Shown piece by piece: positions 3,625 through 23,572 of a DNA stretch of 23,572 bases. Location: positions 1-23,572 of IMG/VR virus record IMGVR_UViG_3300042924_004119; one strand, written 5' to 3'. The position numbers and the translations under genes are program-made. Origin of the DNA: a virus. Under the pieces are notes generated by a model that made no database searches, had not been told where the DNA came from, and saw nothing but the letters and a program-made list of their open reading frames with translations. The number at the start of each line of letters is the position of its first letter. Positions within the stretch are counted from its first letter, which is position 1.

Positions 3625-5838
3625 ATGACGCAGAAGGTCTTCTCGCTCGACACGCGGGCTGGAATCCAGCGTGACGGTACCGTTTACGACAAGATTTTCT
3701 ACAACGATGGGCAGTGGGTGCGCTTTCAGCGTGGCCGCCCCAGGAAGATCGGCGGCTACCGGGTCATCTCTGACGGCTTGAGCGGGCCTTCTCGCGGCAT
3801 CTGGGTCAACCCTCAAGACTCGTTCAATTCCATCTTCAGCGGGTACAGCGACGGCTTGCAAGTTTTGGTCATTGACGACAACGGTATCGGTGCCGGCGTG
3901 ACCAATTTCACGCTGTCCAACTTTACCGCGTCTCCATTGAACCTTTGGCAGTTCGACGGCTTCTACGATGTATCCGGGTCTGGTCTGCAAACGATTGTTG
4001 CTCATCCTGGGAAGAATCTTGTTGCGATTGACAGCACCGCCAACACCCCTGTTTTGGCCGGGAACATCAACGGCTCGACCATGTCCAAGGTCGGCGTTTT
4101 TACCGACTCGGCAACCACCGTAAGCGGCAACAACGTCATCACCCTGGCCGCAGTGAATCCTTTTGTCGGTGCCGGGCAGACTGTGACCGGTGCGGGTATC
4201 CCTGCCAACACTACCGTGGTGTCTGTTTCGACGACCAGCGTGACGATCTCCAACAATGCTACGGCTTCGGCTACGGTGACTGTCACGTTCGACAACAACA
4301 TCTCCGTCTCCGGCGGCGTGGTGTCCCTGCACCCGTACCTGTTCGTGTACGGCAACAACGGCTTGATTCAAAATTGCTCTGCCGGCAACTTGGATGACTG
4401 GGTTTCTGCGGACGCCAATGCGACCAACGTGGCCACCGGAAAGATCGTCCAGGGGCTACCCGTCAGGGGCGGCTCCAACGCGCCTTCTGGGCTGTTTTGG
4501 AGCCTTGACAGCCTCATCCGCGTGTCGTTCATCGGCGGCACGGGAACCCCTCCCCAATACTGGCGCTATGACATCATCAGCAGCCAGTCCTCAATCTTGT
4601 CGTCCCAGTCGGCCATCGAGTACGACGGGATCTATTACTGGTGCGGTGTTGACCGATTCCTTCTCTACAACGGTGTGGTCAAGGAAATCCCGAACAGCAT
4701 GAACCAGAACTACTTCTTCGACAACCTGAACTACTCCCAGCGCCAGAAGGTTTGGGTGACCAAGGTGCCCAGGTACGGAGAGATCTGGTGGTTCTACCCC
4801 CGCGGGGACGCAACCGAATGCACCGACGCAATCATTTACAACGTGCGCGAGAACGTCTGGTATGACGCCGGGCAGGCCCTTGGTGCCCGTCGGTCTGCCG
4901 GGTACTTCTCCCAGGTGTTTGCGTTCCCCATCGCGGCCAATTGGGATGCCAGCGAGGCCGAGGCCGTCTTTGTGGACGACTTCAATGAGGTTTCTGGCAG
5001 CGAGTTTTTGTACCTTGACACCTACAACACGCAGGCCGCCATAAATCAAGTCATCTCCGGATCGAACATCCCGACCGGCACGACCGTTGTCGCCATTACG
5101 TCGAGCAACATCAAGACCCTCGGTACGATCACCCCTGGGTCTGGATATGTGGATGCCGTCTACACCAACGTGCCCTTTACTGGTGGCTCCGGGATGGGCG
5201 CAAAGGCGACGATTTCTGTCGTCGGTGGTCAGGTGACGACGGTGACGGTTACGGATCGCGGGGCAGGATATGAGATCGGCGACATCCTGAGCGCGAGCAA
5301 CACAAACCTGGGTGGATCCGGCTCTGGATTCGCAGTTCCCGTGTCGGCGATTTATGCCCAGGCCATTGAGATGTCTGCCGCGGCCACCGCAAGCGGAACG
5401 GCTTCGTTGACGTTTTCGACTCCTGCCGGGCTGGTTCGTTTGTACCAGCACGAGATCGGAACCGACGATGTCGAGGGTCAAAACGTGTCTGCCATCCGCA
5501 GCTACTTCGAGACCAGTGACCTGAGCTTGACTGCTGGTGGCCCGTCTCAGCCTGCCGCTGAAGGCCCGAACCGATGGCTCAGGATCGAGCGGATTGAGCC
5601 CGACTTCTTGCAAGAAGGCGAGATGTCGGTGATCGTGACCGGACGGCCTTTCGCTCAAGGGGAGGACAAGGAGTCTGACCCGTACATCTTTGGCCCGAAC
5701 ACCGGCAAGATCGACATGCGTGAGCAGCGCCGAGAGTTGCGCCTGCGGTTCATCTCTGATGTAGCCGGCGGCGACTATCAACTGGGCAGGCTGCTCCTGA
5801 ACGCCGAGGTGGGCGACGTGAGGCCATATGGCCCTTAA
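3625..5838 (+). CDS. Tail nozzle / stabilisation-like protein with inserted Ig-like domains
   Basis: A 737-residue protein. Residues 1-135 (starting MTQKVFSLDTRAGIQRDG, with WVRFQRGRPRKIGGY), the centre (about 240-456, with SQSAIEYDGIYYWCGVDR and IIYNVRENVWY) and the end (605-737, with RELRLRFISDV and QLGRLLLNAEVGDVRPYGP) read as a beta-propeller-type tail protein comparable to P22 gp10 or T7-like tubular protein B, the tube through which DNA leaves. Two insertions interrupt it: an Ig-like repeat at about 169-225, and a second copy at about 457-600 that is itself split by an 82-residue Gly-rich domain (GSGYVDAVYTNVPFTGG...). It follows the fibre gene directly; AAGGCGGGG lies upstream of the ATG. 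Function is inferred from position and C-terminal pattern. Confidence 0.72.
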   Translation: MTQKVFSLDTRAGIQRDGTVYDKIFYNDGQWVRFQRGRPRKIGGYRVISDGLSGPSRGIWVNPQDSFNSIFSGYSDGLQVLVIDDNGIGAGVTNFTLSNFTASPLNLWQFDGFYDVSGSGLQTIVAHPGKNLVAIDSTANTPVLAGNINGSTMSKVGVFTDSATTVSGNNVITLAAVNPFVGAGQTVTGAGIPANTTVVSVSTTSVTISNNATASATVTVTFDNNISVSGGVVSLHPYLFVYGNNGLIQNCSAGNLDDWVSADANATNVATGKIVQGLPVRGGSNAPSGLFWSLDSLIRVSFIGGTGTPPQYWRYDIISSQSSILSSQSAIEYDGIYYWCGVDRFLLYNGVVKEIPNSMNQNYFFDNLNYSQRQKVWVTKVPRYGEIWWFYPRGDATECTDAIIYNVRENVWYDAGQALGARRSAGYFSQVFAFPIAANWDASEAEAVFVDDFNEVSGSEFLYLDTYNTQAAINQVISGSNIPTGTTVVAITSSNIKTLGTITPGSGYVDAVYTNVPFTGGSGMGAKATISVVGGQVTTVTVTDRGAGYEIGDILSASNTNLGGSGSGFAVPVSAIYAQAIEMSAAATASGTASLTFSTPAGLVRLYQHEIGTDDVEGQNVSAIRSYFETSDLSLTAGGPSQPAAEGPNRWLRIERIEPDFLQEGEMSVIVTGRPFAQGEDKESDPYIFGPNTGKIDMREQRRELRLRFISDVAGGDYQLGRLLLNAEVGDVRPYGP

Positions 5839-14304: not shown

Positions 14305-15084
14305 TCACTGGTGTTGGTTTTTGAGTTGCCAAAACTTGAGCAGGGAGCAGAACATCAACCAGCCGCGGTCAAGATCTTCTGCGCTCCACTCGCGCATGAC
14401 TGAAAGGCCGGCAACGCTGCGGGAGACAAACACGTTCGCGCACCGCGCCTTGGGGATGCCAAGCCCGACCCGGTAGGCAGCAAGCTGCATCAGGTGGTCA
14501 TCGTACCCCTCGACCTTGGCGGGGTCGCTGAAGTCCTTGGTCTTTACGTCCACCACGATGCCGTCGAATTCAAGCCTTGCAGGCGCGTGGAGATCGCACT
14601 TGCCACCGAACCCCATCTCATGGGCAAACGAACGCTCTGCGATCCATCCTTGCAGCCCAAAGTGGTTGTTTATGACCTTGGTGCAGCCCATGACGTGGCT
14701 GTGGTGCTTGAAGTTCGGATCACCGTCGTAGAAGCCCTGGATTGAGGCATGGATGTCAGTTCCGGCATCAGCCGCAGCGCGGCCCTGCTCCTTGCTGTCA
14801 TCCATGATCCGGTCAATCCAATCGTCCTCCGGCTCGTCCTGTCGCCTGGGAAGCGTCAGGGCGGCCATCAGGACTTGCTTTTGCAGCCACTGCGTCAGGG
14901 CGGGCTTTGCAGCCACGTTTAGGACGGTGGTGACCGAAGGTACAAGGTTGAGCTTTCGGGCGTCTCTGAGGGTTGTGTTCCTCATCCCACCCTTGGCTGC
15001 CTCGACCGTGTACATCGGCGCACCGTCTCGGGTGTACCAATGGTTGCTTTCGCTTGCGCGAGGCTCCTTTGCGGTAATGGTCAT
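14305..15084 (-). CDS. PD-(D/E)XK family exonuclease (Cas4/RecB-like)
   Basis: A 259-residue nuclease of the PD-(D/E)XK superfamily. From the ATG at 15084 one can read His112 in AGTDIHASIQGFYDG, Glu150 in WIAERSF, Asp164 in GGKCDLHA, the core Asp179-Val-Lys181 in VVDVKTKDF, and the QxxxY motif (Gln200-Leu-Ala-Ala-Tyr204), the full set seen in RecB/Cas4-type nucleases. It probably resects DNA ends for phage recombination or degrades host DNA. The reading frame is open upstream to 15468, but the extra 128 residues are shadow sequence; ATG 15084 overlaps the previous stop as ATGA and has GGAG six bases upstream. The SSB-like protein in the same operon fits a recombination or replication-repair set. 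No annealing protein (RecT, Erf) is visible in the window. Confidence 0.88.
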   Translation of the reverse strand: MTITAKEPRASESNHWYTRDGAPMYTVEAAKGGMRNTTLRDARKLNLVPSVTTVLNVAAKPALTQWLQKQVLMAALTLPRRQDEPEDDWIDRIMDDSKEQGRAAADAGTDIHASIQGFYDGDPNFKHHSHVMGCTKVINNHFGLQGWIAERSFAHEMGFGGKCDLHAPARLEFDGIVVDVKTKDFSDPAKVEGYDDHLMQLAAYRVGLGIPKARCANVFVSRSVAGLSVMREWSAEDLDRGWLMFCSLLKFWQLKNQHQ

Positions 15085-15320
15085 TTGATCTCCGAGAGCT
15101 TGTTCTGGATGAAGTAGTCTATGACCTCTTCGAGCAAAGCCATTCGGTTTGACTTCCTCCCGTCGGCAAGGGCGGTGATCATCCAGTAGTGCGACGGGGA
15201 CACGCCAATGGCGAAGCTCTCGGTTTTTTTCTTGTTTACCTGGGGCATGCGCTTGGGTGGTTTTTTGACTGCAACAGTCGACACCCTTTTGACTTTTTTG
15301 ACTTGAGATTCTTCGTTCAT
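15081..15320 (-). CDS. Small basic protein, possible ribbon-helix-helix
   Basis: A 79-residue protein starting MNEESQVKKVKRVSTVAVKK. The first 35 residues are Lys-rich; the rest (ESFAIGVSPSHYWMITALAD, then GRKSNRMALLEEVIDYFI) has the strand-helix-turn-helix order of a ribbon-helix-helix DNA-binding domain. It may bind DNA as a dimer and act as an operon regulator. ATG 15320 shares one base with the preceding stop (TAATG), and the gene ends in an ATGA overlap with the exonuclease. An in-frame upstream ATG at 15440 would cover the membrane protein gene and is unlikely. RHH is a pattern-based inference. Confidence 0.6.
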   Translation of the reverse strand: MNEESQVKKVKRVSTVAVKKPPKRMPQVNKKKTESFAIGVSPSHYWMITALADGRKSNRMALLEEVIDYFIQNKLSEIK

Positions 15321-15487
15321 TAAAACACTCCAAACCAGATGCCGGTGCCGTGAACGCACCCGACGGGGAAGAACAGCGCCCCTGCCAACAAGAAGCCCCA
15401 GGAGGCTGTCTTGAGGCAGACGATGACATGGGTGAACCAAGCCAGGACGACCCAGGCTGCAATCGCAAACGGGAAAAGCTCGCTCAT
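15320..15487 (-). CDS. Small two-segment membrane protein
   Basis: A 55-residue hydrophobic protein with two transmembrane segments: about residues 5-24 (FPFAIAAWVVLAWFTHVIVC) and about 29-46 (ASWGFLLAGALFFPVGCV), followed by the end HGTGIWFGVF. Proteins of this shape, with a Trp-His core and a closing GxxIHGxGIWFG-like end, are common in phage early operons and have no assigned function. The start ATG overlaps the preceding stop as ATGA, and the stop overlaps the next start by one base. It may alter the host membrane, or act in superinfection exclusion (speculative). Confidence 0.7.
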   Translation of the reverse strand: MSELFPFAIAAWVVLAWFTHVIVCLKTASWGFLLAGALFFPVGCVHGTGIWFGVF

Positions 15488-15735
15488 GATTGGGCCGCCG
15501 CGAGTCTCAACTGACGTTGCTTTTCGTGCCGGGCCTTCATGAAGGCAGACTGCTTTGCACGCTGCTCGGGAGTCCACGCGGCTTTCTTGCGCTCTTTCTT
15601 GACTTCCTTCGGCTTTTTATCGGCCTTGACCAGGGCGCGAAGGTAGATCACTTCGGCGTTGATGTCTTGAACCATTGCGGCCAAGCTCTTGATGTCTTTT
15701 TGCAGTTGCTCTTTTTCGCTCTTAGAAATAAACAT
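15484..15735 (-). CDS. Small coiled-coil, basic protein
   Basis: An 83-residue protein: a coiled coil (MFISKSEKEQLQKDIKSLAA to about residue 38) followed by a Lys/Arg-rich half (KADKKPKEVKKERKKAAWTP, ending in EQRAKQSAFMKARHEKQRQL). It should dimerise and bind nucleic acid or an acidic partner. AGGAGAG lies six bases before the ATG. The end overlaps the small membrane protein gene by four bases. No family recognised; the tail EQRAKQSAFMKARHEK resembles the motif of small NUMOD3-like or AT-hook-like basic helices, but this is weak. Confidence 0.7.
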   Translation of the reverse strand: MFISKSEKEQLQKDIKSLAAMVQDINAEVIYLRALVKADKKPKEVKKERKKAAWTPEQRAKQSAFMKARHEKQRQLRLAAAQS

Positions 15736-15744
15736 GTCGCTCTC

Positions 15745-16101
15745 CTATTTGTTGACGTTGGATCTCCACAGGGTGACATACATCCCGTGGACGGTTCTGC
15801 TTTCAGCCCTGACCGGGCCTACGGCACTGACAATCCCCTCTTTCGAGGCTCTCTTCGCAATATGCCCCCAGGCCCTTGAGTCAGGGGGCGGTGGAACGTG
15901 CAGGCTGGCTGCACGCACTTGCTCGGTGGTGAACTCGTAGTTCATGCGGGCGAACTGTAGGAAGGACTCGAAAGCCACCTCCTTCCAGCTTTCCCCAGCG
16001 TGATCAGCCGCTACCTTGGCCATAGCGTGACCGATCTCCAGCCCTGTAAACGGCCTGCCACCGAACATGTCAATGGTCAAATCGTCGCTTGGTAGCTTCA
16101 T
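15745..16101 (-). CDS. Phage protein with winged-helix-like C-terminal half
   Basis: A 118-residue protein. After a short N-terminus come FTGLEIGHAMAKVAADHAG, the helix SWKEVAFESFLQFARMN, then EFTTEQVRAASL, PPPPDSRAWGHIAKRASKEG and a closing pair of strands around VRAESRTVHGMYVTLWRS. The same order (helix, TTxxV, RAxGxxxKRAxxxG, then strands ending in VWRS) recurs in small phage proteins near replication genes and looks like a winged helix. ATG 16101 lies one base after the stop of the SSB-like gene; a longer open frame from 16317 is a shadow. It may help load a replication protein or bind DNA; function unknown. Confidence 0.68.
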   Translation of the reverse strand: MKLPSDDLTIDMFGGRPFTGLEIGHAMAKVAADHAGESWKEVAFESFLQFARMNYEFTTEQVRAASLHVPPPPDSRAWGHIAKRASKEGIVSAVGPVRAESRTVHGMYVTLWRSNVNK

Positions 16102-16102
16102 G

Positions 16103-16747
16103 TCAGAAGGGCACGTCGCTATCCAGATCGTCAAACCCAGATCCGCCTTTTGGTTTTGCAGCATGTTTTGACCTCGCTTGCCATTCTGGGCTTGACTGAA
16201 TCTTCTCTTGCAGGTTCCTGCTGAAGGTCTCGAACATTTCCATGTCGGGGTTGTCGATGTAGAACAGGCCTGTCTCGTTGAATGGCTCGGGCATGCCGGC
16301 CTTCCTGACCGAGGCAAGCACAGGGTTCACCGTCATGATGTTGGTGTACTCCTTGCCGTTGCCGCCGGTGGATTTCGCAACCGAGAGCATTGCCCAATGG
16401 CCGAGGATGTTCTTGAGTTCAAAGCCGCGAAGCTCGTCTGAAGTGAATTCCTTGCCGCGCCATGTCTGCAAGTCCTTGCGCAGGGCGGCTTTCTCACCGA
16501 GAGAGAGGGTGTAGTTCTTCGAAATGGTCATCGGCTCGCCCTTCTTCGTGATCAGGGGCCTTCCGCTCTCATCTTCGCCGTGAACCTCAAAGTGCAGCAT
16601 TACCTTGTGCAGGTGTTTGACCTCACCTTGCCACTCTGACTTTTGCGTGCCGAGGTCAACGATGCGGTAGCACCGTGCAAGATGCATCCCTGGGGGTACT
16701 GGGGTAAAGGTGCTTTCGCTGTTGTTTTCTTTCGCTACTAGACTCAT
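16103..16747 (-). CDS. SSB-like protein with acidic C-terminal tip
   Basis: A 214-residue protein. The N-terminal 145 residues are mixed beta (VPPGMHLARCYRIVDLGTQK, HKVMLHFEVHGED, EPMTISKNYTLSLGEKAALR, FELKNILGHWAMLSVAKS), compatible with an OB-like fold. A linker then ends in GFDDLDSDVPF, nearly identical to the DDDIPF tip with which single-strand binding proteins recruit partners. It probably coats single-stranded DNA during phage replication or recombination. I chose ATG 16747 over 16777: it overlaps the stop of a 48-residue gene as ATGA and has GGAGAG upstream, while 16777 has no ribosome binding site. The exonuclease three genes later in the operon may be a partner. The fold is inferred; the tail motif is seen directly. 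Confidence 0.75.
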   Translation of the reverse strand: MSLVAKENNSESTFTPVPPGMHLARCYRIVDLGTQKSEWQGEVKHLHKVMLHFEVHGEDESGRPLITKKGEPMTISKNYTLSLGEKAALRKDLQTWRGKEFTSDELRGFELKNILGHWAMLSVAKSTGGNGKEYTNIMTVNPVLASVRKAGMPEPFNETGLFYIDNPDMEMFETFSRNLQEKIQSSPEWQARSKHAAKPKGGSGFDDLDSDVPF

Positions 16748-16890
16748 TTCTTCTCTCCGATTGATGGTAGACCGCATTCATAGCGGATGGTTTTCCAGTC
16801 TTCGCTTGTAGCAACGCCCGCCTCAGCCCTGGCAAGGGCCTCTTCGAGCATCTGCATTCTTTCGAGCATGGCTTGGTGGTGTTCGCTCAT
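16744..16890 (-). CDS. 48-residue coiled-coil protein
   Basis: A very short gene between two - strand genes. It reads MSEHHQAMLERMQMLEEALA, continues with an acidic Ala-rich helix, and ends GLPSIGEKK. Its ATG (16888-16890) overlaps the preceding stop as ATGA, and its TGA overlaps the start of the SSB-like gene, again as ATGA. This double coupling, plus coding-like composition, supports a real gene and fixes the start of its downstream neighbour. The first half is a short coiled coil; function unknown. Confidence 0.72.
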   Translation of the reverse strand: MSEHHQAMLERMQMLEEALARAEAGVATSEDWKTIRYECGLPSIGEKK

Positions 16891-17090
16891 ACGTCGGTCC
16901 TCACGATTGAGTTGACGTATCGACCGATGCGGTCAAGGAGCCCAGGCTTTTGCACCTGTTGGTGAGACAAGAAGCTGTCTTGCAGCCGCTCCATGTCTCT
17001 GCTGACCGGGTAGTTCAGCTTGCGCTGGTACATGCAGCCGATCTGCACACCTGTCTTCGTTGTGTAGGGAATCACTTTTTCGCTTTTCAT
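16887..17090 (-). CDS. Small phage protein, first gene of the leftward operon
   Basis: A 67-residue protein starting MKSEKVIPYTTKTGVQIGCM and containing LNYPVSRDMERLQDSFL, then KPGLLDRIGRYVNSIV. It is the first gene transcribed leftward from the divergent control region, with a leader of about 20-25 bases. The ribosome binding site is weak (AAGCAAG upstream). The YTTKTGVQIG-x-Y-x10-S-x-DMERLQ pattern recurs in small early phage proteins of unknown function. It ends by ATGA overlap with the next gene. Confidence 0.68.
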   Translation of the reverse strand: MKSEKVIPYTTKTGVQIGCMYQRKLNYPVSRDMERLQDSFLSHQQVQKPGLLDRIGRYVNSIVRTDV

Positions 17091-17112
17091 CGCACTTGCT
17101 TCGCTGTTGAGG

Positions 17113-17148
17113 GAACCGCAGTGTATCGGCTTTAACGTGACAATACAA
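17113..17148 (-). promoter_or_regulatory. Possible leftward early promoter
   Basis: On the - strand, TTGTAT (+ coordinates 17143-17148) and TACACT (17120-17125) are spaced by 17 bases and lie about 30 bases upstream of the first leftward ATG. Each box is an imperfect sigma-70 match (three and four of six bases). The -35 box overlaps an operator half-site TACAAC at 17144-17149. This is the best candidate I see, but weak. Confidence 0.3.
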
Positions 17149-17202
17149 CCCCTGTTGCAAAACTTTTTTTTGGTTGTATGATGGCGTTACAACAGCAACA
17201 GG
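17143..17202. promoter_or_regulatory. Operator cluster with interleaved inverted repeats
   Basis: The half-site TACAAC or its complement GTTGTA occurs exactly at 17144-17149, 17173-17178 and 17188-17193, with a one-mismatch copy GTTGCA at 17154-17159. The pair at 17173-17193 is a perfect dyad, GTTGTA-N9-TACAAC. Larger arms also match: ATACAACC (17143-17150) with GGTTGTAT (17172-17179), and CCTGTTGC (17151-17158) with GCAACAGG (17195-17202), in interleaved order. Likely binding sites for the Cro/YdaS-like protein encoded next to it, or for a regulator outside the window. Confidence 0.65.
17155..17182 (+). promoter_or_regulatory. Rightward early promoter (sigma-70 type)
   Basis: TTGCAA (17155-17160) and TATGAT (17177-17182), spaced by 16 bases, match sigma-70 boxes at four and five of six positions. 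Transcription would start near 17189, about 20 bases before the ATG at 17210. The GTTGTA half-site at 17173-17178 overlaps the -10 box and the dyad partner at 17188-17193 covers the start point, so repressor binding would block polymerase. Confidence 0.6.
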
Positions 17203-17209
17203 AGTCTGC

Positions 17210-17419
17210 ATGACACTTAAAGATTTTTTTGAAACCAAGAAGCTGGGGGCCAAGACTGATATGGCCCAGGCGCTGGGGATCAGTCGAACGTGGCTGGCGC
17301 TGATCATCAACGGTCAGCGCGTACCCAGCGTCAGGCTCAGTCTGGACATCGAGCGTTACACCAACGGCAAGGTCAGGCGCAAGGATCTTCGGCCAGACAT
17401 GTTTGGAGCAATAAAGTGA
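17210..17419 (+). CDS. Cro/YdaS-like HTH regulator
   Basis: A 69-residue helix-turn-helix protein: MTLKDFFETKKLGAKTDMAQ, then ALGISRTWLALIINGQR as the HTH, then VPSVRLSLDIERYTNGKVRR and a closing DLRPDMFG. The combination of a Cro-type HTH and the end (I/L)E..T.G.V.R.DLRPD is characteristic of the YdaS family of phage and prophage Cro-like regulators. It should bind the operator cluster just upstream and control both divergent operons. The ATG at 17210 has AGGAG (17200-17204) at proper distance; an in-frame TTG at 17174 lies inside the promoter and is not the start. It ends in a GTGA overlap with the DUF1376 gene. No CI-like partner is visible in the window. Confidence 0.85.
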   Translation: MTLKDFFETKKLGAKTDMAQALGISRTWLALIINGQRVPSVRLSLDIERYTNGKVRRKDLRPDMFGAIK

Positions 17420-18069
17420 TTTGGTACAAATTCCACCTTGGTGACTACATCACCCACACCACGCATCTGAGCGATGCAGAGGACTTGGCTTACCGCCGCC
17501 TGTTGGATTTGTACTACATGAGCGAAAAGCCAATCCCCTTGGACACTGATGCCGTGTCTCGTCGAATTCGACTTGACTTGGACATAACCGAATCGGTTTT
17601 GAATGAGTTCTTCGAGAAGACTCCAGAGGGCTATCGGAACGTGAGATGCGATGCTGAAGTCGAGAAGTACCAGCAGCGTGTTGAGACCAACCGATCCCTT
17701 GGCCTGAGAGGCGGAAGGCCCAAGAAAACCGAATCGGTTAGCGAATCGAAACCGAACGATAACCCTAAGAAGATACAGATACAGAAAGAGAATAAAGACA
17801 TATCGTCGCAAGCGACTCGTTTCGGCGACTTCTGGTCTGCATGGCCAACGTCAAAGCGTAAGGTCGGAAAGGGTGCCTGCGAGGCGAAATGGAGCCGCCT
17901 GGGCCTAGACCCCCTGGCTGATCGAATCATCGCCTCTGTGACCCGTTTAAAGGCCTCTGAGCAGTGGTTGTCGGGGTTTGAGCCCGCCCCGCTGACGTAC
18001 ATCAACCAAAAGCGGTGGGAAGATGAGGCCGGAACCGAATCGGTTTCCATTGGCAGGAGGCTTGTATGA
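17416..18069 (+). CDS. DUF1376 (YdaU-like) replication protein
   Basis: A 217-residue protein. Residues 2-100 carry the DUF1376 signature: WYKFHLGDYITHTTHLSDAE, DLAYRRLLDLYYMSEKPIPL, a second helical part, and NRSLGLRGGRPKK. A Lys/Gln/Ser-rich linker follows (about 101-135), and then a C-terminal helical domain (FGDFWSAWPTSKRKVGKGAC, and LSGFEPAPLTYINQKRWED) like those of phage replication initiators and helicase loaders. It probably binds the origin and recruits the helicase encoded two genes downstream. The start is GTG 17416, overlapping the regulator stop as GTGA; an ATG at 17290 in the same frame would only add shadow sequence. Three copies of a 13-base dyad lie inside the gene. Confidence 0.85.
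   Translation: MIWYKFHLGDYITHTTHLSDAEDLAYRRLLDLYYMSEKPIPLDTDAVSRRIRLDLDITESVLNEFFEKTPEGYRNVRCDAEVEKYQQRVETNRSLGLRGGRPKKTESVSESKPNDNPKKIQIQKENKDISSQATRFGDFWSAWPTSKRKVGKGACEAKWSRLGLDPLADRIIASVTRLKASEQWLSGFEPAPLTYINQKRWEDEAGTESVSIGRRLV
17586..18045. repeat. Three exact 13-bp dyads in the replication gene
   Basis: AACCGAATCGGTT (six-base arms around a central A) occurs exactly at 17586-17598, 17727-17739 and 18033-18045. Each copy encodes Thr-Glu-Ser-Val in the DUF1376 frame. Between the second and third copies lies a purine- and A-rich stretch (about 17755-17810) with a tandem AGATAC repeat at 17771-17782. The arrangement resembles initiator-binding sites inside phage replication genes, as in lambda O. 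Confidence 0.55.
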
Positions 18070-18500
18070 GCCCGGTCGAGAACCTGCTTCAGCGCCTGGA
18101 GAAGGTCAAGGGCCGTAATGGCTCATGGACTGCCCGCTGCCCGGCGCACGACGACAAGGGCCCTTCCCTGGCCATCAAGGCCGCAGACGATGGCCGGGTG
18201 CTGCTGCACTGTTTTGCAGGCTGTGACGTCCACTCCGTGGTCGGGGCGGTCGGCATGGAGATCGGCGACCTGTTCCCTCCTGACAGCAAGCGCAAGGAGT
18301 ACCCGGTTGATGGCAAGCCCGCAATCAAGCCGGCCTTCTACGCAAGCGATCTGATGCGCATCATCGGCTTCGAGGCCCTTGTGGTGCAGATCGTCGCCTT
18401 TGACATCGGCAACGGGAAACCCATCAGCGAAGAAACCCGCGAGCGCATGCTCACGGCCTACCAGCGAATCGACGAAGCAATGAGGTACGCGAATGTCTAA
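18066..18500 (+). CDS. Primase-type CHC2 zinc-finger protein without catalytic domain
   Basis: A 144-residue protein. The zinc site is Cys25-x2-His28 (RCPAHDDKGPSL) with Cys49-x3-Cys53 (VLLHCFAGCDVHSVVGAVGM), the DnaG/CHC2 arrangement that reads template sequence during primer synthesis. The rest (about 75-144) is helical and contains no Toprim or RNA polymerase domain, so this is a stand-alone zinc-binding module or a shortened primase. It overlaps the DUF1376 stop by four bases and is followed by a helicase gene that overlaps its last eight bases. It may combine with the helicase in trans, as the split parts of a T7 gp4-like primase-helicase would, or recruit the host primase. That role is inference; the zinc motif is directly seen. 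Confidence 0.82.
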   Translation: MSPVENLLQRLEKVKGRNGSWTARCPAHDDKGPSLAIKAADDGRVLLHCFAGCDVHSVVGAVGMEIGDLFPPDSKRKEYPVDGKPAIKPAFYASDLMRIIGFEALVVQIVAFDIGNGKPISEETRERMLTAYQRIDEAMRYANV

Positions 18501-19503
18501 TGTAGCCATGATCGAACAGAGGGCGCGTCAACTCGACGAGGCCCGCAAGGTGCGGATGATCAAGTCCGAGGAGATCGACACAGAGACGTACCTCAAAGCG
18601 CACGATGTGACGCACAAGGTGCATGAGGCATCGGTCTGGCTTGAGGAGTTGCAGCAAGAACTCGTCGCACCGCCTGAGCGAGACAAGAGCGTGACGATGC
18701 CCTGGCCGAAGACTCATGCGGGGTTTCAGTTCCGCCCAGGCGAGGTGACCCTGTATGCCGGCTCCAACGGCGGCGGGAAGTCCCTGATCACCGGTCAGGT
18801 GGCGATGGGCCTGATCAAGCAGAAGCAGAGGGTGTGCATTGCCAGCTTCGAGATGAAACCCAAGCGCACGATCTACCGGATGCTGCGTCAGTTCGCTGGC
18901 GAGAACATCGAGTTCCCGCAGTACGTTGACAAGGCAACCTACATCGGCAGGCTGCTGGAGCGGTTCACGCAATACAGCCGCGATGGGTTGTGGCTGTACG
19001 ACCAGCAGGGGACGACCTCAAGCCAACAGGTGATTGCGATGGCCCGGTACTGCGCGATGGAGCTCGACGTGCAGCACGTCTTTATCGATTCTTTGATGAA
19101 GTGCGTGGCCGGCGAGGACGACTACAACGCCCAGAAATCCTTCGTGGACGAGTTGACCGCCCTGGCCAGGGATCACCACATCCACATCCATCTGATCCAT
19201 CACATCCGCAAGCTCGGCAGCGAGGAGCAGATGCCAAGCAAGACCGACATCAAAGGTACTGGAGCGATTGCCGATCAGGTGGACAACGTGCTGCTGATGT
19301 GGCGCAACAAAAAGAAGGAGCACGAGATTCAGAACGGCGGCAACCCAGATCCGATGAAGCCCGATGCAATCTTGATGTGCGAGAAGCAGCGCAATGGTGA
19401 GGCAGAAGACTGGTACAGCCTTTGGTATCACAAGGACAGCCAGCAGTTCTTGGAGTCGGACTCATCTCTGACGATGTCGTTCGACGACAGGGGGGCATTT
19501 TGA
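18493..19503 (+). CDS. DnaB/Twinkle-like replicative helicase
   Basis: A 336-residue RecA-fold helicase. Walker A is GSNGGGKS at residues 90-97 (after GEVTLYA); VCIASFEMKPKRTIYRMLRQ follows as motif 1a; Walker B is VFID ending at Asp199; LIHHIRK (234-240) is the H-motif; and TDIKGTGAIADQVDNVLLMW (251-270) is the DnaB/T7 gp4 segment around the subunit interface, followed by EKQRNGE (297-303). The first 80 residues are a charged linker without a DnaB N-terminal domain. It should unwind the phage origin as a hexamer with the zinc-finger protein and DUF1376 protein encoded just before it. ATG 18493 overlaps the previous gene by eight bases. Confidence 0.9.
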   Translation: MSNVAMIEQRARQLDEARKVRMIKSEEIDTETYLKAHDVTHKVHEASVWLEELQQELVAPPERDKSVTMPWPKTHAGFQFRPGEVTLYAGSNGGGKSLITGQVAMGLIKQKQRVCIASFEMKPKRTIYRMLRQFAGENIEFPQYVDKATYIGRLLERFTQYSRDGLWLYDQQGTTSSQQVIAMARYCAMELDVQHVFIDSLMKCVAGEDDYNAQKSFVDELTALARDHHIHIHLIHHIRKLGSEEQMPSKTDIKGTGAIADQVDNVLLMWRNKKKEHEIQNGGNPDPMKPDAILMCEKQRNGEAEDWYSLWYHKDSQQFLESDSSLTMSFDDRGAF

Positions 19504-19733
19504 GTGAAGGCGAAGGAGCGGACGAGCATCGGCATCGTTGTCTCGTTCGGGAAGTCATCCGAAAAAGGATACAAGATCGTGCAGCTGCGCACCGATTTCT
19601 CTACGGTTACCGTGACGACCTTGGCAAGTATCACAAGGGCTGGAACGAAATACATCCAAAGTCAAGACTTGATCAAGATGTGCGAGAGCAGTGGAACAAA
19701 GGCAACAGAGGCCAAGAAGGAGAATGGAAATGA
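19500..19733 (+). CDS. Small conserved phage protein, TTG start
   Basis: A 77-residue protein reading (M)SEGEGADEHRHRCLVREVIR, a basic helix, then GKYHKGWNEIHPKSRLDQDV and the end REQWNKGNRGQEGEWK. The His/Cys cluster near the start and the QWxKGNRGxxGEW ending recur in small phage proteins. I chose the TTG at 19500: it overlaps the helicase stop as TTGA, has a G-rich run upstream (19490-19495), and the gene then ends in an ATGA overlap with the next. A competing frame from GTG 19504 to 19749 gives a Thr/Ser-rich sequence without family features and would overlap the next gene by 20 bases. Function unknown; HxHxC could bind metal. Confidence 0.68.
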   Translation: MSEGEGADEHRHRCLVREVIRKRIQDRAAAHRFLYGYRDDLGKYHKGWNEIHPKSRLDQDVREQWNKGNRGQEGEWK

Positions 19734-19915
19734 ACATGGGAAAACTTGAATGGAATCCGGAAGATGGGGAGGGATTCGTTCTCTTCTCGACCAAATTTAT
19801 TACATCAGACCGGATCGTCCAGCTTGATGCCCTGGTTGATTGGATCAGGATGTTGCAGGACACCTACGACGAAATGCTTGAGCAAACACAAGGAGAAGAT
19901 GATGAGCAAAGTTGA
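19730..19915 (+). CDS. Small acidic protein, unknown function
   Basis: A 61-residue acidic protein (MNMGKLEWNPEDGEGFVLFS, then RIVQLDALVDWIRMLQDTYD, with an acidic tail EQTQGEDDEQS). It overlaps the previous gene by four bases (ATGA) and the next one by 14. A strand pair followed by an amphipathic helix suggests a small folded domain. No family recognised. Confidence 0.7.
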   Translation: MNMGKLEWNPEDGEGFVLFSTKFITSDRIVQLDALVDWIRMLQDTYDEMLEQTQGEDDEQS

Positions 19916-20189
19916 GTTGAGTGATTTTCAGAAACAGTTCCTGCTCGGGCAGGGTGCTGGGCAAACCCTGTACACCGAGAAGGAGTTCGGTGAGCGGCTT
20001 GCGCAAGCGAAGGCAGAGATCATGGCCATTGCTATCCAGACCAGCAAGCAGGCCGTCATGATCGAGCGTCAGGCCTGCGCAGAACTGGTCATGGAGCTTG
20101 CGTCTCAGGAGGATGAGGGTGAGACCTCGACTGCCATGAAGAACGCGGCATACGCCATCCTGAACCGCATACCGAGCCAAAGACAATGA
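19902..20189 (+). CDS. Small helical phage protein, unknown function
   Basis: A 95-residue protein starting MSKVELSDFQKQFLLGQGAG, with TLYTEKEFGERLAQAKAEIM and MIERQACAELVMELASQEDE, ending NAAYAILNRIPSQRQ. It is mostly helical; the ERxACAELVxxLA segment recurs in small phage proteins of unknown function. I prefer ATG 19902 over the ATG at 19899 because AGGAG (19891-19895) is then six bases away. A long open frame upstream (from 19746) is a shadow. It ends in an ATGA overlap with the methyltransferase gene. Confidence 0.72.
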   Translation: MSKVELSDFQKQFLLGQGAGQTLYTEKEFGERLAQAKAEIMAIAIQTSKQAVMIERQACAELVMELASQEDEGETSTAMKNAAYAILNRIPSQRQ

Positions 20190-22144
20190 AATTCGGATCT
20201 GTCTGCTCTGGGATTGAGGCCGCATCTGTTGCGTGGGAGCCATTGGGCTGGAAAGCCGCTTGGTTCTCCGAGATTGAGCCGTTCCCCTCTGCGGTGCTTG
20301 CGCACCACTACCCTGATGTCCCCAACCTGGGTGACATGACTACTTTGCCAGAACGAATCTTGTCTGGTGATGTTGAGGCCCCCGATGTGTTTTGTGGCGG
20401 CACTCCCTGCCAAGCATTCAGCGTGGCCGGCCTTCGCAAATCCCTTGATGATGCTCGTGGAAATCTTTCTCTTACTTTTGTAGGTATCGCAAATGCAATT
20501 GACCATGTTCGATCTGTTCGACGAGATGACCCGTCAATCATCTTCTGGGAAAACGTCCCCGGAGTCCTCTCAACAAAGGACAACGCTTTCGGCTGCTTTC
20601 TTGGCGCACTTGCCGGGGAAGATGATCCGATCATCCCATCAGGGGACAAATGGACGAACGCAGGTTGTGTGTATGGCCCCCAAAGAGCAGTCGCGTGGCG
20701 AGTCCTCGACGCCCAATATTTCGGAGTGGCCCAACGACGCCGCCGTGTGTTCGTTGTCGCAAGTGCTAGAGCAGACTTCGATCCCGCAGCGGTTCTTTTT
20801 GAGTTCGACGGCGTGCGCCGGGATTCTGCGCCGAGCCGAGAAACGGGGAAAAACGCTGCCTCCTGCTCTCCATCAAGCCCTGAAGTCTGTGGCGCATTGA
20901 CCGCTCGGTTCGGCGGTCAAGCTATGGGCGCTCCAGAGGTAGATGCTGGGTTGTACATTCCAGTTTCCCACTCCTTGCGCGGTGAGGGATTTGATGCCAG
21001 CGAGGATAGCACCGGGCGGGGATCGCCGCTGATTCCGGTAGCAATGCGGGAATCCGGCCAAGGCTATTGGATGCAGGACGATGTAGCTGGCACGTTGAGA
21101 GCTGAGGGAGAAGGCAGGCCCAGCAGACCTAGCCATGTCATCGGTGTTCCCATCGCCTTCCATCCCACGCAAGACCCGATCAGTAGCACGGACGGAACCA
21201 CGCACGCGATGGGCTGCGGGTCGAGCGGTGGAACGGCAACAGTAGCGGTAGCGCAGCCATTAAACATCTACGGCGGCAACAAGCGCCAAGACCGTCCAGA
21301 AGGTGGGTTTTACGTTCGTATGGACGAGGAAACCAGCAAGACGCTGGACGCAGCCAGCGGGTTGAATCCAACCTGTTCTCAGGGCGGCACGGCTGTGTTG
21401 CAGGCCGTCGGCTTTGACTCCTACAACCACGCCGTGACAGGCGATTTGTCAAAGACGTTGGATGTTGGGCAGGACTACCACCATGTGCCGAATGTGTTTC
21501 AGCCAATCGCCCTGCAAGACGTAACGCCCCGCGAGAAGGCGCAGAACGGGAAGGGCTGGAATGATGACGGCTCGGCGTACACAGTAGACACTCACGCAAC
21601 GCAAGGAGTGATGCAGGCGATTCCGATTGACACCATGAACATGACTCCCGGACATTCATCTGGTGGACTTGGTTTTGGTCAACCCGGGGATCCCAGCTTC
21701 ACACTGACTAAGGGGCACAGTCATGCGGTGGCACAGCCAATCGCTTGGGATGAAGAAATGAATCCATTCTTGGATGTTGCTGGGACTCTGCTGCGCGGCG
21801 GCGCTGGCGGCAGGCACGATGGGGTAATGCAGCCAGTTGGATTCACCCGCTGCGACCACGGTGGGGATGCCGTAATTGACGGCACGCCGACCATGCGATG
21901 CGGCAGCAATTACTCGGCGCATTTGGCAGCAGCCATGCCGTCCATGCAAGTGCGTCGCCTCACGCCCGTAGAGTGCGAGCGCCTGCAAGGCTTCCCCGAC
22001 AACTACACCGCCATCCCGTGGCGTAAGAAACCTGCGTCAGAATGCCCTGACGGCCCCCGCTACAAAGCCCTGGGCAATAGCTGGGCTGTGCCCGTGGTGC
22101 GTTGGATAGGCGCAAGGATACAAAAGGAGGCCAGTGGTGATTGA
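20186..22144 (+). CDS. C5 cytosine DNA methyltransferase with repeat-rich target region
   Basis: A 652-residue DNA (cytosine-5) methyltransferase. Motif I is FGSVCSGIEAASVAWEPLGW (3-22); motif IV is GGTPCQAFSVAG with catalytic Cys75; motif VI is WENVPG (ENV at 122-124); motif VIII is QRRRRVFVV (183-191); motif IX is RRLTPVECERLQGFPDNYT (590-608); and motif X is YKALGNSWAVPVVRWIG (626-642). The stretch between VIII and IX, which holds the target recognition domain, is almost 400 residues and consists largely of degenerate repeats (see 20888-21937). It modifies phage DNA, most likely to evade host restriction; no restriction endonuclease is adjacent. A second open frame lies inside the gene at 20493-20900. 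It starts by ATGA overlap. Confidence 0.93.
   Translation: MKFGSVCSGIEAASVAWEPLGWKAAWFSEIEPFPSAVLAHHYPDVPNLGDMTTLPERILSGDVEAPDVFCGGTPCQAFSVAGLRKSLDDARGNLSLTFVGIANAIDHVRSVRRDDPSIIFWENVPGVLSTKDNAFGCFLGALAGEDDPIIPSGDKWTNAGCVYGPQRAVAWRVLDAQYFGVAQRRRRVFVVASARADFDPAAVLFEFDGVRRDSAPSRETGKNAASCSPSSPEVCGALTARFGGQAMGAPEVDAGLYIPVSHSLRGEGFDASEDSTGRGSPLIPVAMRESGQGYWMQDDVAGTLRAEGEGRPSRPSHVIGVPIAFHPTQDPISSTDGTTHAMGCGSSGGTATVAVAQPLNIYGGNKRQDRPEGGFYVRMDEETSKTLDAASGLNPTCSQGGTAVLQAVGFDSYNHAVTGDLSKTLDVGQDYHHVPNVFQPIALQDVTPREKAQNGKGWNDDGSAYTVDTHATQGVMQAIPIDTMNMTPGHSSGGLGFGQPGDPSFTLTKGHSHAVAQPIAWDEEMNPFLDVAGTLLRGGAGGRHDGVMQPVGFTRCDHGGDAVIDGTPTMRCGSNYSAHLAAAMPSMQVRRLTPVECERLQGFPDNYTAIPWRKKPASECPDGPRYKALGNSWAVPVVRWIGARIQKEASGD
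20493..20900 (+). CDS. Overprinted ORF inside the methyltransferase gene (+1 frame)
   Basis: A 135-residue open frame entirely within the methyltransferase gene, shifted by +1. It starts MQLTMFDLFDEMTRQSSSGK, continues with a Ser/Gln/Thr-rich part, then NISEWPNDAAVCSLSQVLEQ and TSIPQRFFLSSTACAGILRR, and ends AEKRGKTLPPALHQAL. The last 55 residues match a pattern I know from short phage proteins annotated near or beside cytosine methyltransferases (CSLSxVLE...PxRFFLSxxACAGILRRAEKRGKxLP), so the frame may be a conserved product and not a chance opening. A weak AGGT lies about ten bases before the ATG. It overlaps the region coding for motifs VI and VIII of the enzyme. Whether it is translated cannot be decided from sequence alone. 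Confidence 0.45.
   Translation: MQLTMFDLFDEMTRQSSSGKTSPESSQQRTTLSAAFLAHLPGKMIRSSHQGTNGRTQVVCMAPKEQSRGESSTPNISEWPNDAAVCSLSQVLEQTSIPQRFFLSSTACAGILRRAEKRGKTLPPALHQALKSVAH
20888..21937 (+). repeat. About ten degenerate repeats in the methyltransferase target region
   Basis: Residues 235-584 contain about ten units built on a [ST]-x-[TS]-[LVM] core followed after a variable stretch by a hydrophobic Q-P-[IVL] step. Cores include ALTARFGG (237), HSLRGEG (262), GTLRAEG (302), SKTLDAAS (384), SKTLDVGQ (422), AYTVDTH (464), SFTLTKG (504), GTLLRGG (533) and PTMRCGS (568). Links include VAQPLNI, LQAVGF, FQPIAL, MQAIPI, VAQPIAW and MQPVGF. Unit length varies from about 18 to 40 residues. Confidence 0.7.
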
Positions 22145-22481
22145 ACTGACCTTGCCTTGGCCGCCCTCGGTCAATCGGTACTGGCGCACGTTCCAGGGCC
22201 GCATGATCATCAGCGCAGACGGCAGGGCTTACCGCAAGGCGGTGGCCGATCAGGTGCTGATTCAGCAAGGGGCCAAGAACCTTGCCGGCAAGCTCGTGGT
22301 GGAGATCGAAGCCTGGAGGCCAGACAACCGAAGGCGCGATCTGGACAACCTGCTCAAGGCGGCTTTGGACGGCTGCACCCACGCGGGCGTATGGGAAGAC
22401 GACAGCAACATCGTTGACCTGAGAATTTATTGGGCCGAGCACATCGGCGGGATGCTAAAAATTAAAGTGAGAGAACAATGA
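22137..22481 (+). CDS. rusA: RusA-type Holliday junction resolvase
   Basis: A 114-residue RusA family endonuclease. Key marks are LPWPPSVNRYWRTFQGR at the N-terminus and the acidic catalytic block RRRDLDNLLKAALDGCTHAG followed by VWEDDSNIVDLRI; the Asp residues in DLDN and EDD match the metal-binding aspartates of RusA. It resolves four-way junctions made during phage recombination or replication. A perfect AAAGGAGG (22123-22130) lies inside the end of the methyltransferase gene. GTG 22137 is six bases from it and is preferred over GTG 22134, at three bases. The gene ends in an ATGA overlap. Length is normal for the family (about 120). Confidence 0.92.
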   Translation: MIELTLPWPPSVNRYWRTFQGRMIISADGRAYRKAVADQVLIQQGAKNLAGKLVVEIEAWRPDNRRRDLDNLLKAALDGCTHAGVWEDDSNIVDLRIYWAEHIGGMLKIKVREQ

Positions 22482-22690
22482 ACGAGAGCACTGCATTGGA
22501 GTGGCGGTGGTTTGAGCCGTCAAAAGGAAAGATTGGGGTTGCAAAAGTGCAGACCCAAGACGGCAAGATTGAGTACCGCATCAGCCCGGTCGATGGGTTC
22601 ATGGAGAAGATGGACGTGCAGCAGATCGTGGCCTGGGGGGCTGCATTCCCTGACGCCGCGGGGCAGGCGCTCTTCAAGGGGAAAGCATGA
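22478..22690 (+). CDS. Small phage protein, unknown function
   Basis: A 70-residue protein starting MNESTALEWRWFEPSKGKIG, with QDGKIEYRISPVDGFMEKMD and the end AAGQALFKGKA. The first half looks like a small beta hairpin with aromatic residues, the second half is helical. It is coupled by ATGA overlaps to the RusA gene before it and to a 59-residue gene after it. No family recognised. Confidence 0.72.
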   Translation: MNESTALEWRWFEPSKGKIGVAKVQTQDGKIEYRISPVDGFMEKMDVQQIVAWGAAFPDAAGQALFKGKA

Positions 22691-22866
22691 AGCCAGAACC
22701 ACAACTGATCGACCTGTTTGCGATGTTCGCATTGATGAACCAGACCAATGACTCTTCGCTTTTTGGGAGCGACGAGTACCAGCGCCTGATCGCGGAGCGG
22801 TCTTACCGCATGGCTGCGCAGATGATGAAAACAAGAGAGCGATTTATTGGAGACAAAGATGAGTGA
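22687..22866 (+). CDS. 59-residue helical protein, unknown function
   Basis: A short gene between two better-supported ones. It begins MKPEPQLIDLFAMFALMNQT, continues with SSLFGSDEYQRLIAERSYRM, and ends in a charged helix RERFIGDKDE. The ATG overlaps the preceding stop as ATGA, and the last eight bases overlap the start of the next gene. Without it, 168 bases would be unexplained in an otherwise gap-free operon. Composition is coding-like; function unknown. Confidence 0.72.
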   Translation: MKPEPQLIDLFAMFALMNQTNDSSLFGSDEYQRLIAERSYRMAAQMMKTRERFIGDKDE

Positions 22867-23197
22867 CAGCGACGTAAAAAATCCAGAGCTTGCGATTGAG
22901 TACATCTTCAAGTACGGCAAGAAGTTCGGAGAGGCTAAGGGCAATCGAATCTATATGGAGGAGTACCGCAAGTCTCTGAAGGCGATGATCATGAAGCGAA
23001 GCCTTGAGACATCGGTCAATGCGCAGGAGCGCGAGGCGTACTCTGATCCCGAGTACATCCAGCACCTCAGAGGCTTGCAGGAGGCGGTGCAGATTGAGGA
23101 GGAGATTCGCTGGCGCTTGATCGCTGCGCAGGCTCGCATCGAGGTCTGGCGCTCAATTGAGGCAACGAACCGGGCAGAGGGCAAAGCGACGATATGA
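22859..23197 (+). CDS. Conserved helical phage protein, unknown function
   Basis: A 112-residue helical protein: NPELAIEYIFKYGKKFGEAK, YMEEYRKSLKAMIMKRS, QEREAYSDPEYIQHLRGLQE, and ARIEVWRSIEATNRAEGKA. The order AK-x-R-x-x-x-EE-x-RK-x-x-KA, then QE-x-x-AYS-x-P-x-Y, then WRS recurs in phage early operons near recombination genes; no function has been assigned that I know of. GGAG lies six bases before ATG 22859; a TTG at 22847 in the same frame is less likely. It ends by ATGA overlap with the zinc-ribbon gene. Confidence 0.75.
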   Translation: MSDSDVKNPELAIEYIFKYGKKFGEAKGNRIYMEEYRKSLKAMIMKRSLETSVNAQEREAYSDPEYIQHLRGLQEAVQIEEEIRWRLIAAQARIEVWRSIEATNRAEGKATI

Positions 23198-23376
23198 AGT
23201 GCCCACTATGCGGTGCGCCATCCGATGTCAAGGCAACTCGAAAGCCCAATGGCGTCATTGTGCGCAGCCGCCTCTGCTACAACGAACACATCTTCCGAAC
23301 CGAGGAGCGGGCCATCACTGAGCCCAGGCACAAGGATGACAAAAGACGAAAAAAAGCACCTGTCCAGAGTAGCTGA
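23194..23376 (+). CDS. Small zinc-ribbon-like protein (NrdR-like N-terminus)
   Basis: A 60-residue basic protein: MKCPLCGAPSDVKATRKPNG, then VIVRSRLCYNEHIFRTEER and a Lys/Arg-rich tail. The first part resembles the zinc ribbon of NrdR (CPxCG, a central V-x-x-(S/T)R-x8-RxR-x-C, then F-x-T-x-E), but the fourth ligand is His in C-Y-N-E-H instead of Cys in CxxC, and the ATP-cone is absent. It may bind DNA as a small phage regulator. It overlaps the previous stop as ATGA, and its last 41 bases overlap the next gene. Confidence 0.68.
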   Translation: MKCPLCGAPSDVKATRKPNGVIVRSRLCYNEHIFRTEERAITEPRHKDDKRRKKAPVQSS

Positions 23377-23572
23377 CCTCGGCTGCGCTGTGTGTCGGCG
23401 CATGGGGTATCCGGGTACCCCTGCCGAGATACATCATCCAAGGGCCGGAACAGGGGCTGGGAGACGCGCAAGCCACTGGGATGCTATCCCACTATGCCCA
23501 GAGCATCACCGCGGCAAGACGGGGCTGCACGGCCTTGGCACGAAGGGCTTTCCCAAGCACTACGGCTACGAC
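23336..23572 (+). CDS. HNH nuclease, Ref (RecA-dependent nuclease)-like (3' partial)
   Basis: The frame is open to the end of the window; 79 residues are visible. After MTKDEKKHLSRVADLGCAVC comes RRMGYPGTPAEIHHPRAGTG, then RRASHWDAIPLCPEHHRGKT and GLHGLGTKGFPKHYGYD. The pattern CxxC, IHH, IPLCPEHHxG, GxHxxGxxxFxxxYG is that of phage P1 Ref and relatives, HNH-type nucleases that cut at RecA filaments, or of closely related HNH proteins of lambdoid phages. The zinc cysteines (C17, C20) and the HH pair are present. The ATG at 23336 overlaps the zinc-ribbon gene by 41 bases. The C-terminus is cut by the window edge. Confidence 0.82.
   Translation, partial: MTKDEKKHLSRVADLGCAVCRRMGYPGTPAEIHHPRAGTGAGRRASHWDAIPLCPEHHRGKTGLHGLGTKGFPKHYGYD

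Follow-up and report, generated by a model that had tools for sequence, protein, structure and literature searches.

Between two divergently transcribed gene sets of a 23,572-nt stretch from an aquatic bacterial virus (record IMGVR_UViG_3300042924_004119; hereafter the window), inverted repeats alternate over the presumed promoters, and the question raised by this locus is whether a single protein, encoded by the small gene at 17210, could switch both operons, and through which of these repeats. In lambda, Cro is encoded ahead of the replication genes and O_R and O_L lie over divergent early promoters, and it is mainly as one side of a lysis-lysogeny switch that Cro proteins are known. Here, we consider it probable (about 0.7) that the locus specifies a Cro-type shut-off switch which represses its own gene, targets several early promoters and has no known CI partner; binding, dimerisation, repression and timing are what we infer from a computed motif, its conservation and spacing, its overlap with promoter boxes, further dyads in related contigs and a predicted fold.

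Repeats of the divergent region and the paired dyads

The original prediction described four 8-base repeats in the order A-B-A'-B' (Table 1), and their positions are correct; likewise, the perfect GTTGTA-N9-TACAAC dyad is present at 17173–17193, with the rightward -10 box and the presumed start inside it. The half-site TACAAC/GTTGTA, said to recur four times, has three copies in 17143–17202 (at 17144, 17173 and 17188). Within the whole window, this is the single interleaved set of 8-bp inverted repeats (gap of at most 45), and among 3000 dinucleotide-shuffled versions of the 119-nt divergent region none contained one. An 8-bp inverted repeat alone was seen in 244 of these shuffles and some perfect 6+6 dyad (gap of at most 12) in 955, which is not rare, so the window alone cannot decide. 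When up to two mismatches are allowed, GTTGTA-N9-TACAAC matches the window four times (0.30 expected), two of the matches being in the divergent region. Since single repeats and dyads also arise in shuffles, the dyad is persuasive mainly by its conservation.

Viral contigs supplied 13 loci with relatives of the regulator, as well as 80 of the 140 relatives of the neighbouring DUF1376 protein, and the regulator was located at these loci with an HMM (95 matches); the comparison thus covers loci reached through one protein or the other, many of them closely related. An alignment of 53 distinct 120-nt upstream regions, from which the non-divergent loci L083, L084 and L091 were left out, features two conserved blocks, which are in register with two 21-bp dyads, O_L and O_R. 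The dyad half-site reads (G)NTKTAW, with a 7-bp core, and the four half-sites share NNTKTAW (T at position 3 in 88–100%, T at position 5 in 98–100% and A at position 6 in 100%). In the window, O_R has the best matrix score (21.2) and O_L the second best (16.7, leave-out matrix), and they are found as ungapped 21-mers in 52/53 and 50/53 aligned regions, respectively. Scores are lower in some relatives: O_L is weak in L005 (12.7) and L011 (11.0), and both sites of L071 as well as O_R of L063 fall below 14. Moreover, no motif was found upstream of the regulator in L012 (regulator 57% identical) or in the MW202545 stretch (48% identical). Both dyads are kept in L083, L084 and L091, despite an apparent small gene between control region and regulator; there, a 229-nt stretch with a small open frame of about 66 aa precedes the regulator (L083 1335–1563, L084 1765–1993, L091 3563–3791).

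A symmetric matrix trained on the aligned O_L and O_R sites was then applied to new regions. A second viral scan (80 loci, of at least 416 relatives) contributed 46 of them, i.e., those on so far unused contigs with upstream sequence present, and the genome collection contributed one; 34 of these 47 were kept after removal of short or already-seen regions. Of the 34, 28 have their two top-scoring sites at 8 or more each and 43–44 bp apart (42–46 being accepted), versus 0/1700 Markov resamples and 1/1404 of the remaining 220-nt segments from these loci; the other six (L192, L198, L200, L226, L245 and L251) lack such a pair. The new regions are not all independent, because five repeat a training site exactly in one or both of their dyads (both in L181) and because L194/L195 and L224/L225 have sites in common. 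Finally, a DNA-pattern scan of viral contigs for the window's own dyad returned 33 stretches. Among the 31 loci newly numbered from it, 22 are without a regulator match; L096, which belongs to these 22, derives from the L011 contig and has its regulator outside the fetched stretch, and the others may include chance matches.

These alignments change how the repeats are paired. The half-site predicted on the leftward -35 box is there, but it is not solitary: its partner, GCTTTA (17129–17134), forms the left half of O_L and lies outside the interval first noted (17143–17202). Pairing A with A' as a dyad of its own was rejected, these being the facing halves of two separate dyads, O_L and O_R; outside the window's clade, A' in the aligned regions is mostly of the GGTGTAT type rather than GGTTGTAT. 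As for the second inverted repeat proposed, B/B', it does not hold up among close relatives. In nine distinct upstream regions, chosen for an exact dyad and therefore a test of B/B' and not of the dyad, A and A' are intact throughout, while B/B' is complementary at 8/8 positions in L001 and L003 only and at 3–4/8 in the other seven. Judged from the sequences compared, the repeats do exist, with arms that were at first wrongly paired, and the working units are the two 21-bp dyads.

Table 1. Coordinates of repeats, putative operators, promoter boxes and genes in the window.
Feature	Position	Strand	Remarks
Exonuclease-like protein, leftward operon	14305..15204	-	PHROG 298 exonuclease, E 2.9e-9; in-frame part of a 387-aa ORF
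Leftward-operon gene, function unknown	16103..16777	-	PHROG 862
First leftward-operon gene, 67 aa	16887..17090	-	no significant family, no HTH match
Leftward promoter -10, TACACT	17120..17125	-	17-bp spacer
Putative operator O_L (GCTTTAACGTGACAATACAAC)	17129..17149	strandless	imperfect 21-bp dyad over leftward -35 and spacer
Leftward promoter -35, TTGTAT	17143..17148	-	inside O_L; 17-bp spacer to -10
Repeat A, ATACAACC	17143-17150
Repeat B, CCTGTTGC	17151-17158
Rightward promoter -35, TTGCAA	17155..17160	+	conserved in aligned relatives
Repeat A', GGTTGTAT	17172-17179
Putative operator O_R (GTTGTATGATGGCGTTACAAC)	17173..17193	strandless	perfect 6-base arms over rightward -10 and presumed start
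Rightward promoter -10, TATGAT	17177..17182	+	inside O_R; 16-bp spacer
Repeat B', GCAACAGG	17195-17202
YdaS/Cro-type regulator, 69 aa, proposed repressor of both promoters	17210..17419	+	Pfam, PHROG, fold
DUF1376 / primosomal-type replication protein	17416..18069	+	PF07120, PHROG primosomal (searched from 17419); likely GTG start, read from sequence, overlapping the regulator's stop
Primase-type zinc-finger protein, rightward operon	18066..18500	+	PHROG DNA primase; Pfam Zn_ribbon_DnaG below cut-off
DnaB-like helicase, rightward operon	18493..19503	+	PF03796

The regulator, its promoters and the proposed shut-off

The gene at 17210 encodes a protein matching Pfam YdaS_toxin (PF15943) with 44 bits, above the curated cut-off of 30, and PHROG 35, a transcriptional repressor. 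Its AlphaFold model (37 sequences; mean pLDDT 95.2) has six helices in the all-helical YdaS/Cro fold. The best Foldseek matches are YdaS of CP-933P (8co2, 8c7k), followed by 3bd1, the Cro of Xfaso 1, a putative prophage; one match has an E-value below 0.001, and the TM-score against 8co2 is 0.83–0.85 by query length, at 35% identity. Sequence searches agree that both YdaS of CP-933P and Xfaso 1 Cro are relatives. By sequence, palindromic sites over divergent promoters adjoin the regulator gene; the claim of a single YdaS/Cro-like regulator for both operons is probable and gains support from the comparison.

The rightward promoter is the single sigma-70-like match in 16800–17500 (0.4 expected). 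Among relatives, and under loose criteria, the leftward boxes hold in 50/50 extracted sites (TTG-type -35, -10 of at least 4/6, spacing of 16–18 bp) and the rightward boxes in 51/52 (at least 4/6 for the -10 and 3/6 for the -35), the exception being L012.

According to the shut-off reading, the region would control early transcription in a tailed phage, with the regulator, probably as a dimer, binding the two operators. On O_L, it would block the leftward promoter by occluding the -35 box, with the exonuclease-like gene among those affected; on O_R, it would block its own promoter by occluding the -10 box and the start, a block that would cover the DUF1376, primase-type and helicase genes along with the regulator itself. 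Early in infection, both promoters would fire, until the regulator builds up and both are shut down. Because the regulator comes first behind P_R and this promoter holds O_R, negative autoregulation is the simplest reading, and O_L would extend the same control to the left operon. In the same phage group, the regulator probably also acts on other early genes with a dyad just upstream. Given that the searches yielded no CI-type partner, a role in setting lytic-cycle timing or dosage is likelier than one in a choice between lysis and lysogeny.

A broader proposal, to which we would give somewhat less than even odds, is that of a lytic-cycle timer in virulent aquatic phages, i.e., a Cro-type repressor detached from any CI/integrase switch, with a genome-wide regulon of symmetric operators that shift with its recognition helix. 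If true, it would amount to the shut-off of the two divergent operons together with as many as about six more transcription units, one of which, in at least one phage of the lineage, has the portal gene at its start.

Further dyads in related contigs

A leave-out scan of the window and 12 contigs (score threshold of 14) yielded 51 sites in the 13 sequences (19 of them O_L or O_R, 32 elsewhere), versus summed per-sequence means of 1.8 for Markov controls and 4.5 for permuted matrices, while six more sequences yielded 30 sites versus 0.75 (Markov). Altogether, 50 extra dyads were found in 19 sequences, at 0–7 per sequence, with none scoring at least 14 in the window or in L079; homologous extra sites are common to G022, G023, L005 and L011. 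A crude ORF caller placed 22 of the 32 extra sites of the first scan between ORFs and 10 inside an ORF, and three extra sites (L063 38935, L042 37321 and L012 21189) may be chance matches. Contig G022, 99.96% identical to the last 9 kb of the window (14545–23572) and thus of essentially the same phage, extends further. Its next two dyads fall at what would be window positions 23656 and 25025, the first of them 84 bp past the end, so that the window stops just short of the first extra operator.

An AGCGAA-type leader occurs at most 140 nt downstream of 38/50 extra dyads (versus 408/3800 random positions), which favours the shut-off reading. A -35 box of at least 4/6 adjoins just 16/50 (versus 578/3800), which weighs against it, as do the lack of extra sites in L079 and the 10 sites inside ORFs. 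In the clearest extra promoters, the dyad sits between TTGACA and a -10 box made by its own right half (TAAACT, TATACT or TACACT). Genes downstream of extra dyads in L042 include the portal gene and one for an anti-restriction-like protein, and in both L038 and L077 a dyad lies ahead of an ORF of similar size.

Two other sequence elements were observed in these contigs. A TAGGG-N4-6-CCTA palindrome lies at most 75 nt upstream of 22/50 extra dyads (versus 7/3800 random positions; e.g., L005, L011, L033, L042 and L077), often next to an A/T-rich stretch, and is possibly a second regulator site or an UP-element region. Furthermore, a AACAGCGAA leader recurs before start codons (window 17100–17108, minus strand; L011 contig 46237; L042 contig 46053 and 47819), in a position recalling the start-associated sequences of cluster K mycobacteriophages (PMC3203893).

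At position 4 of the extra half-sites (L012 left out), G is found in 20/20 of those of the window's clade versus 23/78 in the others (Fisher p = 2.8e-9 on half-sites, counting related sites as independent); the ten extra sites of the clade amount to just four distinct sequences, the pattern being perhaps a single evolutionary event, and regulators outside the clade also use G at this position. This is no more than suggestive of a covariation between recognition helix and operator. Related regulators with slightly different operators offer a natural series for following how helix and operator change together, and the dyad motif predicts a regulon in uncultured genomes, where it could help to recognise early promoters.

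Known systems, lifestyle and competing explanations

The closest known system is that of CP-933P of E. coli O157:H7, whose YdaS is reported to protect two stretches over both divergent promoters, the paaR2-ydaS operator region having 18-bp palindromes with the half-site GTTTAGTAA (PMC8630535). The two systems have in common the Pfam YdaS family, the fold and palindromes over both divergent promoters, and the half-site GTTTAA/GTTGTA is close to GTTTAGTAA. They differ in that the dyads here span 21 bp rather than 18 bp, with cores one base further apart, and in that the divergent gene of CP-933P encodes the CI analogue PaaR2, whereas here it encodes a 67-aa protein without significant family or HTH match and no CI was found. 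As in lambdoid and N15-like phages (PMC8630535), a small Cro-type protein is encoded ahead of replication genes and operators lie over divergent early promoters; unlike in these phages, no cI lies between the promoters and neither an integrase nor an S24 repressor is matched. In phiKO2, Cro is reported to bind only OR3, upstream of cB (PMC4997575). The locus is thus ordinary in kind, as a Cro-type operator region, and unusual in setting, with dispersed symmetric operators and no CI or integrase found.

Across 20 related contigs (41–62 kb), no tyrosine integrase (PF00589), resolvase (PF00239), S24 repressor or ParA-type ATPase was matched, and a lone ParB_N match, below cut-off, lies inside a 1606-aa open frame. 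Neither a divergent CI-type gene nor an integrase, as expected of a lambdoid lysis-lysogeny switch, was found in these contigs. HTH_3 matches occur in 9/20 contigs, at the regulator in eight and elsewhere in G017. As the known regulator itself went undetected by this model in 12/20, other small HTH proteins may be overlooked and the absence of CI is weak; the divergent gene may encode an undescribed CI type. End repeats of 114–123 bp, as expected of complete genomes, are present in three of 12 checked contigs (L011, L042 and L063), and the remaining nine may be fragments. The system was not found among titles and abstract openings on virulent phages with Cro-type repressors, which leaves its absence from the literature unproven. 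A phage group with a Cro-type repressor and multiplied operators, apparently without CI and integrase, would allow Cro to be studied in lytic growth alone.

The main rival to the shut-off reading is immunity in an extrachromosomal prophage: the regulator of a temperate phage would be its master repressor, the counterpart of C1 in P1, with the dyads across the genome as immunity operators and autorepression at O_R setting the dosage of the replication genes. We regard it as unlikely. It draws on the position of the replication genes directly behind the regulator, on one relative whose contig was binned with a Limnohabitans MAG (the single relative returned by a genome-contig scan with one short pattern) and on a resemblance to P1 C1, with its 22 operators (PMC8546580), and to cluster A stoperators (PMC6550527), in which one phage repressor has binding sites (here predicted) across the genome. 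Yet the P1 C1 and cluster A sites are reported to be asymmetric and to serve immunity, and stoperators are many per genome and mostly not associated with promoters, while the dyads here are symmetric, number 0–7 extra per sequence and in 22/32 cases lie between called ORFs. Moreover, no ParA-type match was found in any of the 20 contigs, the ParB_N match being the one mentioned above, although partition genes of other types may be present, and the sole repressor candidate found precedes the replication genes, as Cro does. In the consulted part of a paper on a Limnohabitans phage (PMC12195039), no link to this system was found.

Alternatively, the dyads could be targets of a host factor or of an unrecognised phage regulator, with the YdaS-like protein acting elsewhere. 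The other strong HTH_3 protein of G017 (the contig of L047; 24347–24526, in a 121-aa frame, one of two matches there), the ease with which small HTH proteins escape the search and the fact that the context of the dyads was examined in regulator-bearing contigs all leave room for this, but relatives consistently have the dyads ahead of the regulator gene, the HTH_3 match is the regulator in the eight other contigs and the half-site resembles that of CP-933P YdaS, making such an arrangement quite improbable. Still less credible is that the repeats are shared promoter sequence and no operator. Half-sites do coincide with the -35 (TTGTAT) and -10 (TATGAT) boxes, which account for part of the upstream conservation; however, conservation is about as high in the halves that lie beyond the boxes (GTTTAA, TTAAAC), permuted matrices find few such sites, and the dyad is more than a promoter element because P_L, P_R and the extra promoters differ in where its centre falls with respect to their boxes. 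Finally, the RNA pseudoknot once read into the A-B-A'-B' order can be set aside, since its complementarity, perfect in the window, is broken at B/B' in 7/9 close distinct regions and starts near 17189 and 17113 would put A, B and A' outside both transcripts.

Elsewhere in the window, a 652-aa cytosine-methyltransferase-like gene (20186–22144) is absent as a clean unit from G023 and G021, where the sequences at window positions 20189 and 22138 are adjacent, and it looks like exchangeable cargo. In a structural protein (3625–5838), matched pieces show 54% identity to MW202545 and 45% to the Caulobacter phages RW, GB2A, RLK and KcrB, hinting at distant cultured kin.
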